A stretch of DNA of 64,000 bases, from contig NZ_CP128361.1 in assembly GCF_030345075.1 (NCBI RefSeq), forward strand, positions 992,001 through 1,056,000. The letters run 5' to 3'. Origin of the DNA: Solwaraspora sp. WMMA2065. Its GTDB lineage: Bacteria > Actinomycetota > Actinomycetes > Mycobacteriales > Micromonosporaceae. The notes below the pieces were generated by a model, which did no database searches, was not told where the DNA came from, and saw only the letters and a list, made by a program, of their open reading frames with translations. The position numbers were made by a program, and so were the translations under genes. This document shows, one piece after another, positions 1 through 25,416 of the stretch (position 1 is the first letter of the stretch; each line of letters starts with the position of its first letter).

Positions 1-300
1 GCCGCAGCGGCGCACGTCCTCGACGTACGGTGCCTTCAGGAAGGTGTTGATCCCGGCGAAGTGCGGCAGCTCGCCACGGGAGAACGTCGGGATCCGCTTG
101 TCGACGATCGAATCGGCACCGGGCAGGCCGTACTCCAGGCCCCGGGCGATCTCCTCTTCCCACTTGGTGGTGGGCAGTTCGGCCTCGCGGGCGACCGCGT
201 ACGCTGCCTCCGGGCCGTAGTTGCCGTGCAGCTCGGGTTGGTCGCTGGGCTGCTGGTCGCGGTGCTGGTGATAGTGGTGATGATGGTGGTGCAAGCCCAC
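1..300 (-). CDS. Ureohydrolase (agmatinase/guanidine hydrolase family), N-terminal part, runs off the left edge
   Basis: The first 100 residues of a ureohydrolase are visible; the catalytic metal-binding half lies outside the window. Residues about 65-95 carry RIPTFSRGELPHFAG and NTFLKAPYVEDV, the N-terminal signature of agmatinase/guanidinobutyrase/guanidine hydrolase proteins. The start is GTG at 300, with GGAGGT five bases upstream. Right after the start come six histidines in a row and then YHQH, a likely metal-binding tail. The guanidine-I riboswitch just upstream argues for guanidine as substrate (guanidine to urea plus ammonia, as in the nickel enzyme GdmH) rather than agmatine. Family call is firm; the exact substrate is inferred from the riboswitch, since the active site is not visible. 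Confidence 0.8.
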   Translation of the reverse strand, partial: MGLHHHHHHYHQHRDQQPSDQPELHGNYGPEAAYAVAREAELPTTKWEEEIARGLEYGLPGADSIVDKRIPTFSRGELPHFAGINTFLKAPYVEDVRRCG

Positions 301-321
301 GGGGCACCTCCGAATGAGGGC

Positions 322-340
322 CTGGCTGAGGCACAGCCAG
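322..340 (-). promoter_or_regulatory. Hairpin of the riboswitch expression platform
   Basis: A perfect 7-bp stem CTGGCTG/CAGCCAG with a 5-base loop lies between the aptamer and the GGAGG ribosome binding site (about 306-311). No T-run follows, so control is more likely at ribosome access than by intrinsic termination. The mechanism is inferred from position only. Confidence 0.5.
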
Positions 341-349
341 ACATCCGGC

Positions 350-480
350 TGCCTCCCGGGCTTTTGTCCCGCCGTGGAACGCCGCCCGCCACGCTGGCGG
401 CCCGACGCCTGCACCTCTCGGACCTGTCCCGTCCCCGGCTGCCCGTGCCTGGCTGCCCGGCGGCGGCGGAACCCTAGGTG
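350..480 (-). promoter_or_regulatory. Guanidine-I (ykkC) riboswitch
   Basis: Read on the minus strand, the three most conserved blocks of the guanidine-I aptamer occur in order and spacing: CTAGGGTTCC (477-468), GGTCCGAGAG (about 425-416) and GGCGGGACAAAAGCCCGGGAG (about 374-353). They lie 50 bases upstream of the ureohydrolase start at 300. This class senses free guanidine and turns on guanidine export, carboxylation or hydrolysis genes. The ykkC variants that sense ppGpp or PRPP differ at a few core bases, so the ligand should be confirmed by covariance model. Confidence 0.9.
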
Positions 481-530
481 CGCCTCACCGTTGGTGAGTC
501 ACCCCGGAGTAGACGCCGCTGTGGTTTCGG

Positions 531-1478
531 TCACTTTGCCGACCCGTTGCCGTCGGGTATCGGCTGCGCCCGGGCGGCCAGGTCGGACCAGACCCGCTCG
601 TACGCAACGACGTGCGCCGGCTGGTCGAGGTGCATCGTCCCGGTCAGGGTGTCGAGCCGGACCAGCCCCGACCCGGCCGGCCGCCGTCCGGGGACCGTCG
701 TGGCGGCGGCGAAGCGCAGCAGGGTGAACGGGTTGGTCATGCCGGCGTGCGCGCCGCCGGACAGCGGCAGGACCCGTACCGAGATCCCCGGCCTGATCGC
801 GAGCGCCCGCAGGTGGTCGAGTTGCGCCCGCGCCGTCGCGTCGTTGCCGACGGTACGCCGCAGCGCCCCCTCGCCGACGATCGCCTGCACCGCCGGCGGA
901 TGCGGGTGGGTCAGCAGGTGCCGCTGCCGCGCCGCCAGCTGGTCGAGGCGGGCGGCGATGTCGTCGTCGCTGCGCAGACCGGCCGGGCAGCGCAGCAGCG
1001 CCTCGGCGTACCCCGGGGTCTGCAGCAGGTCCGGCAGCGTCGCCTGGCCGTAGCAGCGGATGAGCGTCGCGGACTGTTCGAACACCGGGTACGGGTCGGC
1101 GTCGATCGGCAGTCCGGCCAGCCCGTCGTGCCACCAGCGCCCGCCGCTGGGGCGGTCGATCTCCGCCGCGAGGGCGAGCAGCCGTTCCCGGGTCTCGTCG
1201 TCGGCCCGGTACAGCCGGCACATCGCTGACATGTCCGCTTCGGTCCAGCGCACCCGCGGGTCGCCGGCCTCGATTCGCCAGAGCGTGCTGTTGCCGCGTC
1301 GCAGCTTGTCGGCGGCGACGTCCTGGGACAGCCCGGCCTCGTACCGCAACGCCGCCAGGCACCGTCCCACCTGCCGCCGCAGCAGGGCCGTCCCGCCGGC
1401 CTGCGCGTTGATGCCCGCCGTCCGGGCAGCTCTCCCGTTGTACGTCTTCGCCCGTCGGCCGTCACCCCTGCCAGTCAT
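531..1478 (-). CDS. XRE-family helix-turn-helix regulator with DUF5753
   Basis: A 315-residue protein with a Cro/C1-type helix-turn-helix at about residues 35-90 (around RYEAGLSQDVAADKL and RIEAGDPRVRW), followed by a DUF5753 domain to the C-terminus. This architecture is abundant in streptomycetes and Micromonosporaceae, often as the regulator of a small toxin-like or developmental partner. The N-terminal 30 residues before the helix-turn-helix are basic and may not be translated if a later start is used. It is divergent from the AlpA-like gene at 1546, with direct repeats between them, suggesting mutual control. Confidence 0.85.
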   Translation of the reverse strand: MTGRGDGRRAKTYNGRAARTAGINAQAGGTALLRRQVGRCLAALRYEAGLSQDVAADKLRRGNSTLWRIEAGDPRVRWTEADMSAMCRLYRADDETRERLLALAAEIDRPSGGRWWHDGLAGLPIDADPYPVFEQSATLIRCYGQATLPDLLQTPGYAEALLRCPAGLRSDDDIAARLDQLAARQRHLLTHPHPPAVQAIVGEGALRRTVGNDATARAQLDHLRALAIRPGISVRVLPLSGGAHAGMTNPFTLLRFAAATTVPGRRPAGSGLVRLDTLTGTMHLDQPAHVVAYERVWSDLAARAQPIPDGNGSAK

Positions 1479-20444: not shown

Positions 20445-21217
20445 GCCCCGGCCCGGTCGGGTTCGGCCCGGTCGGGTTCGGCCCGGTCGAGTTCGGTGCG
20501 GACGCCGCGGGCGGTCGGGCCGGTCGTGGTGACCAGCACCGCCGGCCCGCCGGCCAGCGGCAGCCGGGCCGCGCCGGGGCCGAGCGGGCCGGCCGCCGGG
20601 GGCCCGCCGGCTGCCCACTCCGGCCGGACCACCAGCACCGAACCGGTCGCCTTCGCCCCGGCGAGCACCGCCGGCCCGGCCCAGCCGTCGGCGCGCGGCC
20701 CCACCGCCAGGTCGGTACGCAGCACCGTGCGGCCCGCGTACCGGACGGTGGTGTCGATCCGGGCGTCGCCGGACGGCTCACCGTCGCGCCCGCAGACCAG
20801 CTCCTCCCGCCACACCACGGCCGCGCCGTCGGCCAGCTCCACCACCGACCGGGACAGGTGGTGGCAGCCGGCGGCGGCGATCAACGGCTCCGGCAGCCAG
20901 CGCAGCTCGCCGCCGGTCGCAACCCGGACCAGCATCTGCAGCCTCGACCGGCGGCCGTCGGGTCCGGGCAACGCCAGCGACGCTGCGACAGTACGCAGAC
21001 ACACCCGCGCCCCCGGCCCGACGTCGACGTCCAGCCGCAGGTCGTCGCCGCCGAGCGGGCCGGCCGCCGCGCCGACCAGATGCACCTGGACCTCGTCGCC
21101 GGCGGCCGCTGCCGGGCCGGTACGGCGCAGCACCAGCGGCGGCTCGCCGCGCAGGCAGACCAGCCGGGTCCGCCCGGCGGCGTCGACCTCGGCGACCAGC
21201 CGGGCGTGGGCCCGCAT
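20429..21217 (-). CDS. ureD: Urease accessory protein UreD
   Basis: A 262-residue UreD/UreH, the scaffold that binds apo-urease and passes nickel to it together with UreF and UreG. ATG 21217 overlaps the ureG stop (TGATG), so it is the last gene of the operon. Visible family features are the FLRRTGPA-like N-terminal strand, GARVCLRTVAASLALPG, and WLPEPLIAAAGCHH. The C-terminus is tailed by three EPDRA-type repeats that come from a 15-bp DNA repeat and are probably disordered. The 3' end overlaps the convergent UvrA-like gene. Confidence 0.9.
20450..20494. repeat. 15-bp tandem repeat, three copies, inside the 3' end of ureD
   Basis: Three head-to-tail copies of GGCCCGGTCGGGTTC, the third with one change. 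In the ureD frame they encode a repeated EPDRA/ELDRA tail, so copy number can change without a frameshift. Confidence 0.9.
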
Positions 21218-21975
21218 CAGCCGGCGACCTCCGCCGGGGTCTGGGCGCGGGCCCGCAGCAGCCCCCGGATCCATTCGGCCACCGGCGTCGCCGTCCGGTC
21301 CTGCACCAGCGACAGGAACACCGTCGGCAGCTCGCCCCGGCGGGCGGCGGCGTCGCGTTGCATCACCGACAGGTCGGCGTTGACCAGCGGCGCCAGGTCC
21401 GTCTTGTTGATCACCAGCAGGTCGGCGGTGCTCACCCCGGGCCCGCCCTTACGCGGCACCTTGTCACCGCCGGCCACGTCGACCACGAAGATCTGCTGGT
21501 CGACCAGGCCCCGGCTGAACGTGGCGGTCAGGTTGTCCCCGCCACTTTCCACCAGCACCAGATCGAGGGTGCCCAACTGGTCGGACAGGTCCTCGATGGC
21601 GTCAAGGTTGGCGGAGATGTCGTCGCGGATCGCGGTGTGCGGGCAGCAGCCGGTCTCCACCGCCCGGACCCGCTCCGCCGGCAGGACGCCGTTGCGCAGC
21701 AGGAAGTCGGCGTCCTCGGTGGTGTAGATGTCGTTGGTGACCACGGCCAGCCGCAACTCGTCGGCGAGCGCCCGGCACAGCGCGGCGACCAGCGCGGTCT
21801 TGCCGGAGCCGACCGGCCCGCCGATGCCGATCCGCAGCGCGGGGGAGCCGTCCGGCAGCCGGGGCGGGTGCGGGTCGACCCCCGGATCGGGGTGGGTGTG
21901 CGGTACCTCCCCGTCGGTGTGCGCGTGCGGTTCGGCGGACCCGCCGTGGACGTGGGTGTGTGGTTCAGGACGCAA
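21217..21975 (-). CDS. ureG: Urease accessory GTPase UreG with histidine-rich N-terminus
   Basis: A 252-residue SIMIBI GTPase that delivers nickel during urease activation. Walker [17 protein letters not shown] (about residue 50), [13 protein letters not shown], the invariant nickel-binding [13 protein letters not shown] (Cys-Pro-His) and the NKTDLAP guanine-specificity motif are all present. TTG 21975 is chosen since GGGAGGT lies eight bases upstream inside the end of ureF. The first 40 residues hold about nine histidines (HTHVHGG, HAHTDG, HTHPDPG), as in UreG/HypB proteins that store nickel. It overlaps ureF by 11 bp and ureD by 3. Confidence 0.95.
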
Positions 21976-22692: not shown

Positions 22693-24429
22693 TCAGAACA
22701 GGAAGTAGCGCTGCGCCATCGGCAGCTCCACCGCCGGAGCCGGCTCGATCGTCTCCCCGTCGATGCGTACCGTGAACGTGTCCGCGTCGATCTCGATCCG
22801 GGGGGTGGCGTCGTTCAGCGGCATGTCGGCCTTGCCCCGCCGCCGGGTGTCGGCGACCGGGGCGAGCCGGCGACGGATCCCGAGCCGGTCACCGAGCAGC
22901 GCGTCGATCGCAGCCGGCGCGACGAACGCCAGGCTGGTGGCGGCCGGCACGGTGCCGTACGCGCCGAACATGGGCCTCGGCAGCATCGGCTGCGGGGTCG
23001 GGATGGACGCGTTCGCGTCGCCCATCTGCGCCCAGGCGATCATGCCGCCCTTGATCACCAGATGCGGCCGTACGCCGAAGAACGCCGGATCCCACAGCAC
23101 CAGGTCGGCCAGCTTGCCCGGCTCGACCGAGCCGACCTCGCCCTCGACGCCGTGCGCCACCGCCGGGCAGATCGTGTACTTAGCCACGTACCGTCGGGCC
23201 CGCATGTTGTCGGCCGGCCCGTCGCCGGGCAGCGCGCCACGGCGCGCCTTCATCACGTGCGCGGTCTGCCAGGTCCGCATGACCACCTCGCCGACGCGCC
23301 CCATCGCCTGCGAGTCGGAGCCGATCATCGAGATGGCGCCGAGGTCGTGCAGGATGTCCTCCCCGGCCATCGTGCTGGGCCGGATCCGGCTCTCGGCGAA
23401 CGCCAGGTCCTCCGGCACGCTCGGGTTCAGATGGTGGCAGACCATCAGCATGTCGAGGTGCTCGTCGAGGGTGTTGACGGTGTGCGGGCGGGTCGGGTTG
23501 GTCGACGACGGCAGCACGTTCGGCTCGGCGGCGACCCGCATGATGTCCGGCGCGTGCCCGCCGCCGGCCCCTTCGGTGTGGTACGCGTGGATCGACCGGC
23601 CGGCGATCGCGCCCAGGGTGGACTCCACGTACCCGGCTTCGTTGAGGGTGTCGGTGTGGATCGCCACCTGCACACCGGAGGCGTCGGCCACCCGCAGGCA
23701 GGCGTCGATCGCCGCCGGGGTGGTGCCCCAGTCCTCGTGCAGCTTGAACCCGCCGGCGCCGCCGCGCAGCTGCTCCCACATGGATTCTTCGCTGACCGTG
23801 TTGCCCTTGCCGAGCAGCAGCACGTTGACCGGCCACGGGTCGAGCGCGGCGAGCATCATGCCCAGGTGCCACGGGCCGGGGGTGACCGTGGTCGCCTTGC
23901 TGCCCTCGGCCGGCCCGGTGCCGCCGCCCATGATGGTGGTGACGCCGCTGGCCAGCGCTGTCTCCAGGATCTGCGGGCAGATCAGGTGTACGTGGCTGTC
24001 GATCGCCCCGGCGGTGAGGATCTTGCCGTTGCCGGCGATTATCTCGGTGCCCGGCCCGATCACCAGGTCGGGGTGCACCCCGTCCATCGTGTCCGGGTTG
24101 CCGGCCTTGCCGAGCGCGACGATCCGGCCGTCTCGGATGCCGACGTCGGCCTTGACGACGCCCCAGTGGTCGAGCACCACCGCGCCGGTGATCACCGTGT
24201 CGGGTGCCCCTTCGGCCCGGGTGGCCAGGGACTGGCCCATCGACTCGCGGATCACCTTCCCGCCGCCGAAGACCACCTCGTCGCCGTACGCCGGGGTTCC
24301 GTCGGCGCCGGGCGGCGCGCAGCGGTCCTCCTCGACCTCGATCAGCAGGTTGGTGTCCGCCAGCCGGATCCGGTCACCGGTGGTCGGGCCGAGCAGTGCG
24401 GCGTACCGCCGCCGGTCCAGGGTGCTCAC
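22693..24429 (-). CDS. ureC: Urease subunit alpha
   Basis: A 578-residue catalytic subunit, hydrolysing urea to ammonia and carbamate at a di-nickel centre. Visible are the HxH ligand pair in [12 protein letters not shown] (about residue 143), the lysine that becomes carbamylated in [10 protein letters not shown] (about 226), HTDTLNE (about 255) and the mobile-flap Cys-His in [20 protein letters not shown] (about 330). GTG 24429 overlaps the ureB stop. Length is normal and all nickel ligands seem intact, so the enzyme should be functional. Confidence 0.97.
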
Positions 24430-24854
24430 GCCGTGCCTCCCGTCTCACCGGTGCCCGCCTGGTCGGCCGGGCGCCCGGCGCCCGTACCGCCGGCCGGGCC
24501 GCGCCCGTCCAGCTCGCCGCCGCATTCGCCGCGCAGCCCGGCGACGATCCGCCGACCGCCGAACGGCACCAGGGTGACCTCCCGGTCGACGCCGGGCTCG
24601 AAGCGCACCGAGGTGCCGGCCGGCACCGCCAGCCGGTGACCCCACGCGGCGGACCGGTCGAAGTCCAGCGCCGGGTTGGCCTCGGCGAAGTGGTAGTGCG
24701 AGCCGACCTGCACCGGCCGGTCGCCAGTGTTGACGACCGGCAGGGTCAGCACCGGACGGCCGGGATGGAGGGTGACCGGCCCGTCGCCGGGGATCAGTTC
24801 ACCGGGAACGACTGTGCCGCCGTCGGTGCCCGACGGCGTGGATGGTGCGCTCAA
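24426..24854 (-). CDS. ureB: Urease subunit beta
   Basis: A 142-residue UreB. The conserved core [35 protein letters not shown] and [17 protein letters not shown] through [10 protein letters not shown] is intact; about 30 extra glycine-rich residues follow at the C-terminus compared with the usual 100-110. The start appears to be TTG 24854, 8 bp after the ureA stop. The beta subunit forms the trimeric urease shell with UreA and UreC. It overlaps ureC by 4 bp. Confidence 0.95.
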
Positions 24855-24862
24855 TCTCGCTC

Positions 24863-25165
24863 CTAGGAGATCGGCTCGTGTACGGTGACCAGCTTCGTCC
24901 CGTCGGGGAAGGTGGCTTCCACCTGCACCTCGGGGAGCATCTCCGGCACTCCGTCGAGCACGTCCTCGCGGCCGAGCACGGTGCGCCCGGCCTCCATCAG
25001 CTCCGCCACGCTGCGGCCGTCCCGGGCACCTTCCAGCAGGAAGGCGGTGATCACCGCGGTCGCCTCCGGGTGGTTGAGCCGGATGCCCCTCTCACGGCGC
25101 TTCCAGGCCACGTCGGCTGCGACGTGGATGAGCAGTCGCTCCTGCTCGTGCCGGGTGAGAAACAA
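24863..25165 (-). CDS. ureA: Urease subunit gamma
   Basis: Exactly 100 residues, the normal UreA length, when translation begins at TTG 25165, which has GGAGGT five bases upstream. [26 protein letters not shown] at the N-terminus and a C-terminal [21 protein letters not shown] are the family hallmarks. An in-frame extension to 25228 is unsupported. It is the first gene of the urease operon and the candidate GlnR box lies 57-72 bp upstream. Confidence 0.95.
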
Positions 25166-25221
25166 GCCGGACCTCCATGAGCGATCGAGACCTGGGTCGT
25201 GCCAGATGCTGGCATTCTGAC

Positions 25222-25237
25222 ATTTCAATCACGTTAC
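25222..25237 (-). promoter_or_regulatory. Candidate GlnR box upstream of ureA
   Basis: On the minus strand the sequence reads GTAAC-GTGATT-GAAAT, matching the a-site/b-site pair of the actinobacterial nitrogen regulator GlnR (gTnAC, six bases, GaAAc) at 9 of 10 informative bases. It sits 57-72 bp before the ureA start codon, a normal place for an activator. No second pair is evident. The rest of 25166-25416 shows no gene. Confidence 0.55.
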
Positions 25238-25416
25238 GTACGCGTATCCGCTGTCTGGGTGTCACCTGCTGTCCGGCCTGGTACGCACGGGTCGGCTCAC
25301 CTGCGGCGACTTCGCAGGGCAGCCCGTCCGAAGTCCGGGTGCGATGCAACCAGGCAGGGTCGAGCCGGCCGAACGGGCGGAAGCTGCGGCCACGGCGTAC
25401 CGGCTAGCCTGCCGTT

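Follow-up and report, generated by a model that had tools for sequence, protein, structure and literature searches.

A candidate guanidine hydrolase operon behind a guanidine-I riboswitch and a GlnR-like promoter box in Solwaraspora sp. WMMA2065

Locus and guanidine-I aptamer

The window, the whole stretch of 64,000 nucleotides analysed here (Solwaraspora sp. WMMA2065, Micromonosporaceae; NZ_CP128361.1, positions 992,001 to 1,056,000), opens within a minus-strand ureohydrolase gene that exits at the left edge and was obtained in full from beyond it. The gene starts with a GTG at 298-300, preceded by GGAGG, and its leader carries, going upstream, a riboswitch aptamer, a short hairpin and a putative promoter with a GlnR-like triple box, which the 3′ end of a regulator gene overlaps (Table 1). 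Downstream on the same strand follow genes for an SsuA-family binding protein, a permease and an ATPase, which together encode an ABC importer, and urease genes lie 21-25 kb from the ureohydrolase gene within the same window.

Table 1 Features of the window, with positions counted from its first nucleotide.
Feature	Position	Strand	Remarks
Candidate guanidine hydrolase gene (gdmH-type), first 100 codons	1-300	minus	whole gene G000:C1:991119-992300
His-rich N-terminal tail, codons 1-27	220-300	minus	9 His in 27; rest of protein 10 in 366
Putative expression platform: conserved GGCUG strand, hairpin 322-340, Shine-Dalgarno GGAGG 307-311	301-350	minus	
Guanidine-I riboswitch aptamer	351-488	minus	RF00442 match; long inserts in two arms
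Aptamer core block 3, ACGGCGGGACAAAAGCCCGGGAG	353-375	minus	
Aptamer core block 2, GGTCCGAGAG	415-424	minus	
Aptamer core block 1, CTAGGGTTCCG	467-477	minus	
5′ hairpin CTCACC-AAC-GGTGAG directly before P1	484-498	minus	pair conservation
Weak -10-like TCTACT, 7 nt before GACTCA	508-513	minus	inference from aligned leaders
GlnR-like triple box GCAAC-n6-GCAAA-n6-GAAAC, 11-bp spaced	524-550	minus	half-site conservation, matrices
Helix-turn-helix/DUF5753 regulator gene, Sco1979-like (below cut-off)	531-1478	minus	3′ end overlaps GlnR-like box
Possible fourth half-site GATAC	557-561	minus	
ureG, urease accessory GTPase	21217-21900	minus	best HypB-model match
ureC	22693-24429	minus	ORF
ureB	24426-24854	minus	ORF
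ureA	24863-25228	minus	ORF
Second GlnR-like triple box GATAC-n6-GTAAC-n6-GAAAT before ureA	25222-25248	minus	matrices, pattern

An initial annotation of this DNA had reported the three core blocks of a guanidine-I aptamer in a minus-strand leader directly before the ureohydrolase, and both parts of that claim were borne out, since all three blocks were found and the GTG start lies downstream of the aptamer. In a cmscan (Infernal) comparison, RF00442 (Guanidine-I) matched the leader over the full model (1-107) with 45.9 bits and an E value of 6.5e-7, and it was the sole match up to E 1 when window positions 1-800 were compared with all Rfam families. The covariance check that the annotation had proposed named this family, but the score lies under the RF00442 gathering score of 63 bits, so that a search at the gathering threshold misses this aptamer. 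The shortfall is probably due to long inserts in two stems, which are seen in the alignment; an insert-rich aptamer of the same form is present in four leaders of the same genus (L091, L093-L095). The annotation had named a low covariance score as evidence against itself; we think that this objection touches the aptamer without overturning it, given related leaders that reach 83.7 bits. Across 34 genomes holding relatives of the enzyme (33 actinobacterial and one cyanobacterial), RF00442 matched in 31 and exceeded the gathering score in 25, and was absent from two Lentzea and one Mangrovihabitans. Across 39 actinobacterial leaders picked from those at hand, the cores vary little or not at all, and 8 of the 23 predicted helix pairs have changes in both partners. 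Elsewhere in the 6.74-Mb genome, no other RF00442 match at E ≤ 0.001 was found among 150 of 188 candidates scored, nor any guanidine-III riboswitch among 150 of 4578 candidates scored. Second, weaker guanidine-I matches occur in other actinobacterial genomes (L104:321, L102, L103 and L105), that of L104:321 lying before an MFS transporter gene that might encode an exporter.

Enzyme, gene neighbourhood and nickel

The complete product of 393 amino acids scores 723.5 bits against the Nitrospira inopinata guanidinase (9FEK) and 576.3 bits against Synechocystis GdmH (7ESR/7OI1), the next-best chain after the guanidinases being proclavaminate amidinohydrolase (PAH) at 188.6 bits. Identity over aligned residues is 83% (305/367) to the former and 67% (241/358) to the latter, and 28% (85/301) to E. 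coli agmatinase SpeB, with agmatinase, PAH, GbuA and GpuA spanning 28-37%; the genome's two other PF00491 proteins share 27-30% identity with it. Four residues of the N. inopinata enzyme proposed for guanidine hydrolysis, T105, H222, W313 and E344 (PMC11410670), have T116, H232, W323 and E353 as their equivalents here (our reading of the numbering sets published positions and chain index two apart), and T105 and W313 are those reported to set guanidine specificity. Their T, H and W are kept in all 80 fetched relatives and the E in 77, the three exceptions being one truncated match and two apparently frame-shifted rows. At the position of the guanidinase W, SpeB, PAH, GbuA and GpuA have T; T116 is not exclusive to guanidinases, as GpuA and one paralogue from the same genome also have T there. 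The guanidinase metal ligands (H, D, H, D, D, D; PMC11410670) are kept as H193, D217, H219, D221, D309 and D311.

In a tree that left out L072, L078 and L079 (truncated or frame-shifted), the protein groups with the characterised guanidinases, apart from SpeB, PAH, GbuA and GpuA (fork support 97/94, bootstrap not settled), and a second tree with 24 of the 80 loci gave the same placement (95/94, bootstrap likewise not settled). The proposal of a candidate guanidine hydrolase, for which the annotation had asked for the full gene and for a tree with agmatinase and guanidinobutyrase, is thus upheld by identity, by T116 and W323 and by tree placement. Its further suggestion, that the gene is likely misannotated as an agmatinase, is plausible because the best NCBIfam match by name is agmatinase and both solved guanidinases were deposited as putative or probable agmatinase 2, but the agmatinase models stay below cut-off (TIGR01230/PRK02190, 158.7 versus 174.3 and 215.5 versus 302 bits). 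More than a thousand hits above 50% identity were reported to be labelled, without exception, as arginase/agmatinase family (PMC8390497). Judged by its sequence, this gene, of a type commonly labelled agmatinase, very probably serves to break down guanidine for nitrogen. In the organism's own family, a close form (at least 89% identity) was found in 26 of 121 sampled genomes (own included), and in 7 the sole form is 58-66% identical. L106, L107 and L108 represent this second guanidinase-like form; the third riboswitch core and the ABC genes are absent from their fetched flanks, and L106 and L107 keep T and W, while L108 has T at the W position.

Of 53 fetched actinobacterial loci, 29 have the same three ABC genes downstream (some loci stop short of the point where this could be judged), and in the cyanobacterium Chlorogloeopsis the gene order is gdmH, hypA, hypB and then the same three genes. 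hypA and hypB are absent from the window operon. With a cyanobacterial HypA query, hypA was detected in the fetched flanks of 3 of 3 cyanobacterial versus 0 of 53 actinobacterial loci; a HypB query gave 14 actinobacterial places, 10 of which were checked and are UreG, with the remaining 4 sharing the UreG motif. In the genome itself HypA gave no match, and the best HypB-model match is UreG, encoded in the urease cluster. Of the 33 actinobacterial genomes with the enzyme that were tested, 19 have HypA at some place and 14, some of them draft assemblies, gave no match. No urea/guanidine carboxylase scored over its cut-off in the genome, and the one route for guanidine use found there combines guanidinase with urease. 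L007, L008, L010 and L072 have a UreG gene nearer to the guanidinase match than the window does, 1.5-2.2 kb upstream of it; its identity was confirmed in the first three and assigned by motif only in L072. On the plus strand at 23960-24252, antisense to ureC, the Rfam family 5_ureB_sRNA reaches its gathering score, a match that may reflect just conserved urease coding sequence.

Histidine makes up 23% of the stretch ahead of the conserved GPEA motif in 42 actinobacterial proteins encoded behind a riboswitch, the window's among them, versus 6.5% in 22 Nitrospira-type proteins, and 26 of the 42 have at least two His in their first nine residues, at least one of them at positions 2-4; start choices for these counts were rough, the window gene being counted from a start two codons inside the chosen one. 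The tail sequences are unlike between families, which suggests repeated selection, and the tail may help nickel loading. A role as a stand-in for missing HypA was not supported by the co-occurrence test, in which the His number did not differ between HypA-positive and HypA-negative genomes (19 versus 15, p 0.36). Together with the promoter box and the absence of chaperone genes from the operon, the tail goes beyond what the initial annotation had described.

Putative promoter box and expression platform

Upstream of the actinobacterial aptamers, the order is three GnAAC/GAAAC-type half-sites with 6-nt spacers, a weak -10-like stretch and GACTCA, the CTCA of which opens the hairpin directly before P1. 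Among 45 leaders at hand, 42 carry GAC[TC]CA; hairpin pairs 1-6 are kept in 42, 42, 41, 38, 39 and 31 of these 42, with both-side changes at pairs 2, 5 and 6. The half-sites stand 22-23 bp before GACTCA in 41 of the 42, with a shuffle p ≤ 0.05 in 37 (200 shuffles each), and the window box has 12 of the 13 letters of the three-site pattern (shuffle p 0.005). A sigma-70 consensus scan of 200-620 gave no promoter-like site, so that a transcript start near 500 is placed by conservation alone. GlnR boxes have been described as gTnAc-n6-GaAAc in Streptomyces coelicolor and t/gTAAC-n6-Gc/aAAC in Mycobacterium smegmatis (PMC10704036; see also PMC3087709), the Amycolatopsis mediterranei nas operon has a three-site layout, and urease, glnA and amtB are among the reported GlnR targets of S. 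coelicolor (PMC10704036).

A first matrix, built from 21 boxes hand-picked from the 42 (the 10 of the own family and 11 near copies or weaker boxes being left out), ranked the gdmH site first and the ureA site second of 127,948 window positions. This result stood on repetition: a matrix from all 32 boxes outside the own family gave 22.2 bits for gdmH, 21.6 for ureA and 12.1 for the third site in the window, and one from 20 named-taxa boxes gave 20.8, 22.0 and 12.9, the order of gdmH and ureA being swapped. The gdmH rank is partly expected because the matrices were trained on orthologous gdmH promoters; independent support for the GlnR reading comes from ureA, glnA (23.1 and 21.2 bits with the 32-box and 20-box matrices), amtB (16.2 and 17.0) and a second glutamine synthetase gene (15.0 and 16.1), against best background values of 12.1 and 12.9 among 977 randomly drawn 450-bp stretches. 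A GlnA-like gene below its family cut-off scored just 3.4 and 3.2 bits. A strict pattern matched at 9 places in the genome versus 0 for the reversed pattern, one of them 120 bp before an acetamidase/formamidase gene; the presence of gdmH and ureA among the nine is no test, because the pattern was written with both sites in view. Two identical GlnR-like triple boxes lie near the contig ends (G000:C1:34383-34409 and 6726072-6726098), apparently in a repeated stretch. The first matrix was also applied to 11 of the 12 actinobacterial loci that have no riboswitch directly upstream (all but L074), and the idea of a GlnR box there was rejected: the best value was 14.9, in L038, and the rest reached at most 11.4. 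Three Nitrospira, two cyanobacterial, one Chloroflexi and one Entotheonella loci gave at most 11.7, from a matrix whose high-GC background overrates AT-rich genomes. On these sequence statistics, the triple box is probably a GlnR site.

The RNA switching step is the weakest part of the mechanism, and control of transcription or of translation would both be possible. A translational switch by release of the Shine-Dalgarno sequence was rejected after 47 leaders had been folded with and without the aptamer 3′ strand, with no general change in the expected direction: by crude folding of this set, in which a few starts are mis-assigned (in Nitrospira), the mean unpaired value was 0.42 free versus 0.38 bound for the Shine-Dalgarno and 0.38 versus 0.29 for the start codon. 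A consensus platform fold from 30 leaders has 6 pairs, none with both-side changes, and a terminator scan of 200-620 found none on the gene's strand and one site on the opposite strand. In the own genus (window 285-300 minus, L091, L093-L095), the AAGCCC strand of the aptamer can form pairs with GGGCUU in codons 2-3, so RNA structure may restrict how the coding sequence begins; this pairing of the free strand with the start-codon region, seen in the own genus, does not hold across families. In the metagenome loci L015, L032 and L073, the aptamer is followed by strands like TCCCGGGCTTTT that by eye resemble ordinary intrinsic terminators, unlike the window leader.

Proposed mechanism, alternatives and known systems

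The reading that we favour, with a probability of roughly 0.87, is a guanidine-catabolic operon of riboswitch, guanidinase and ABC importer that is controlled by GlnR and guanidine together; the aptamer, the orthology of the enzyme, its specificity and metal residues and the gene order can be read off the DNA. Under nitrogen limitation GlnR would bind the triple box, with the transcript most likely starting near window position 500, and the leader would then need guanidine for guanidinase and importer to be expressed, so that the operon would work as an AND gate with nitrogen hunger and guanidine as its inputs. Guanidine would enter through the importer (binding protein, permease and ATPase), the nickel-type guanidine hydrolase would convert it to urea and ammonia, and the urease whose genes lie in the window would break down the urea; guanidinase activity, nickel and transport substrate are steps that we infer. 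Counting against this reading, the riboswitch is not directly upstream of the gene in 12 of the 53 actinobacterial loci.

An alternative interpretation is that the enzyme is an agmatinase or a guanidino-acid hydrolase of the guanidinobutyrase type that stands behind a guanidine riboswitch by chance, as its best NCBIfam name might suggest and as the metal ligands examined would allow, being common to SpeB, PAH, GbuA and GpuA as well; we consider this very improbable because both agmatinase cut-offs are missed, W323 and T116 are present together, and the enzyme that it resembles at 83% identity is reported to yield very minor urea from agmatine (PMC11410670). Harder still to credit is a leader that belongs to the ykkC variants sensing PRPP or ppGpp, which have the same fold family and the conserved stretch before P1 in their favour. 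In those variants, an extra helix P0 pairs both aptamer ends (PMC6031431), whereas the 5′ stretch here forms its own hairpin, and what tells the ykkC classes apart is an adenine in guanidine-I where the PRPP/ppGpp variants have a pyrimidine (PMC6031431; see also PMC5912903). Both adenines of GAGAG are present in the window and invariant in the 39 leaders, with no pyrimidine at the specificity position (A46, placed within GAGAG by our own reading), so the PRPP- or ppGpp-type core that the initial annotation had listed as counter-evidence was not what was found; RF00442 is moreover the sole Rfam match, and the downstream genes are guanidine genes. By these features the element is a guanidine-I aptamer, predicted to bind guanidine.

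The 11-bp repeats might bind another regulator (for example PhoP, AfsQ1, MtrA or GlnRII) or be kept by common descent alone, and we note that PhoP and AfsQ1 act on the same nitrogen promoters as GlnR according to a review (PMC10704036) and that the leaders behind the matrices are orthologues. We judge this unlikely, however, since spacers vary freely among leaders while half-sites and spacing stay constant, and since the same matrices pick glnA, amtB, the second synthetase gene and ureA and leave the GlnA-like gene far down. For the His-rich tail, we find it fairly probable that there is no nickel role and that it results from drift or from some feature of the start region at the RNA level: His number is unrelated to HypA in the genome, and Nitrospira and Lentzea manage with neither chaperones near the gene nor a His-rich tail, although the unlike tails of several families are His-rich, which the Nitrospira-type tails are not. 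We give rather low odds to the joint proposal that actinobacterial guanidinases load their own nickel, with unlike His tails in several families replacing HypA and HypB, and that a GlnR promoter and a guanidine-sensing messenger form a two-key circuit. If the operon is indeed one for guanidine catabolism under GlnR and guanidine, a set of actinobacterial 'agmatinases' would move to guanidine use and be linked to the global nitrogen regulator; it would also bear on how guanidinases without HypA and HypB get nickel, a situation that may apply to this genome and the 14 others without a HypA match, with Actinobacteria as cultured hosts for such work.

Guanidinases under guanidine-I control have been described in cyanobacteria and comammox Nitrospira (PMC12186494, PMC11410670, PMC8390497), and a published tree with tips coloured by phylum may already include actinobacterial guanidinases (PMC11410670). 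Guanidine riboswitches have been reported beside T-boxes (PMC12452182), and an agmatinase is reported to be raised in nitrogen-limited M. smegmatis, without mention of guanidine (PMC4617892); among the papers listed for GlnR with guanidine and riboswitch or with agmatinase, no title or abstract beginning reports GlnR paired with a guanidine riboswitch. What is known is thus the enzyme family and its guanidine-I control, and what appears to be new is the GlnR-fed, chaperone-free, His-tailed arrangement. The operon of Synechocystis GdmH (Sll1077) shares with the window the riboswitch, the ureohydrolase, the SsuA-like binding protein, the permease and the ATPase (PMC8390497), and its enzyme has both specificity residues at 67% identity, whereas the window operon is without hypA and hypB and has a His-rich tail and a GlnR-like box before the leader. 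The N. inopinata guanidinase has in common with the window protein 83% identity, the four proposed residues and the lack of nearby hypA and hypB, but there an APC permease gene lies between riboswitch and enzyme (PMC11410670), whereas here an ABC importer follows the enzyme, and Nitrospira tails are His-poor where the window tail is His-rich. Known actinomycete GlnR promoters (gTnAc-n6-GaAAc) share the half-sites and the 6-nt spacers, and the three-site layout is like that of the A. mediterranei nas operon; in contrast to these, the window promoter would feed a guanidine riboswitch.
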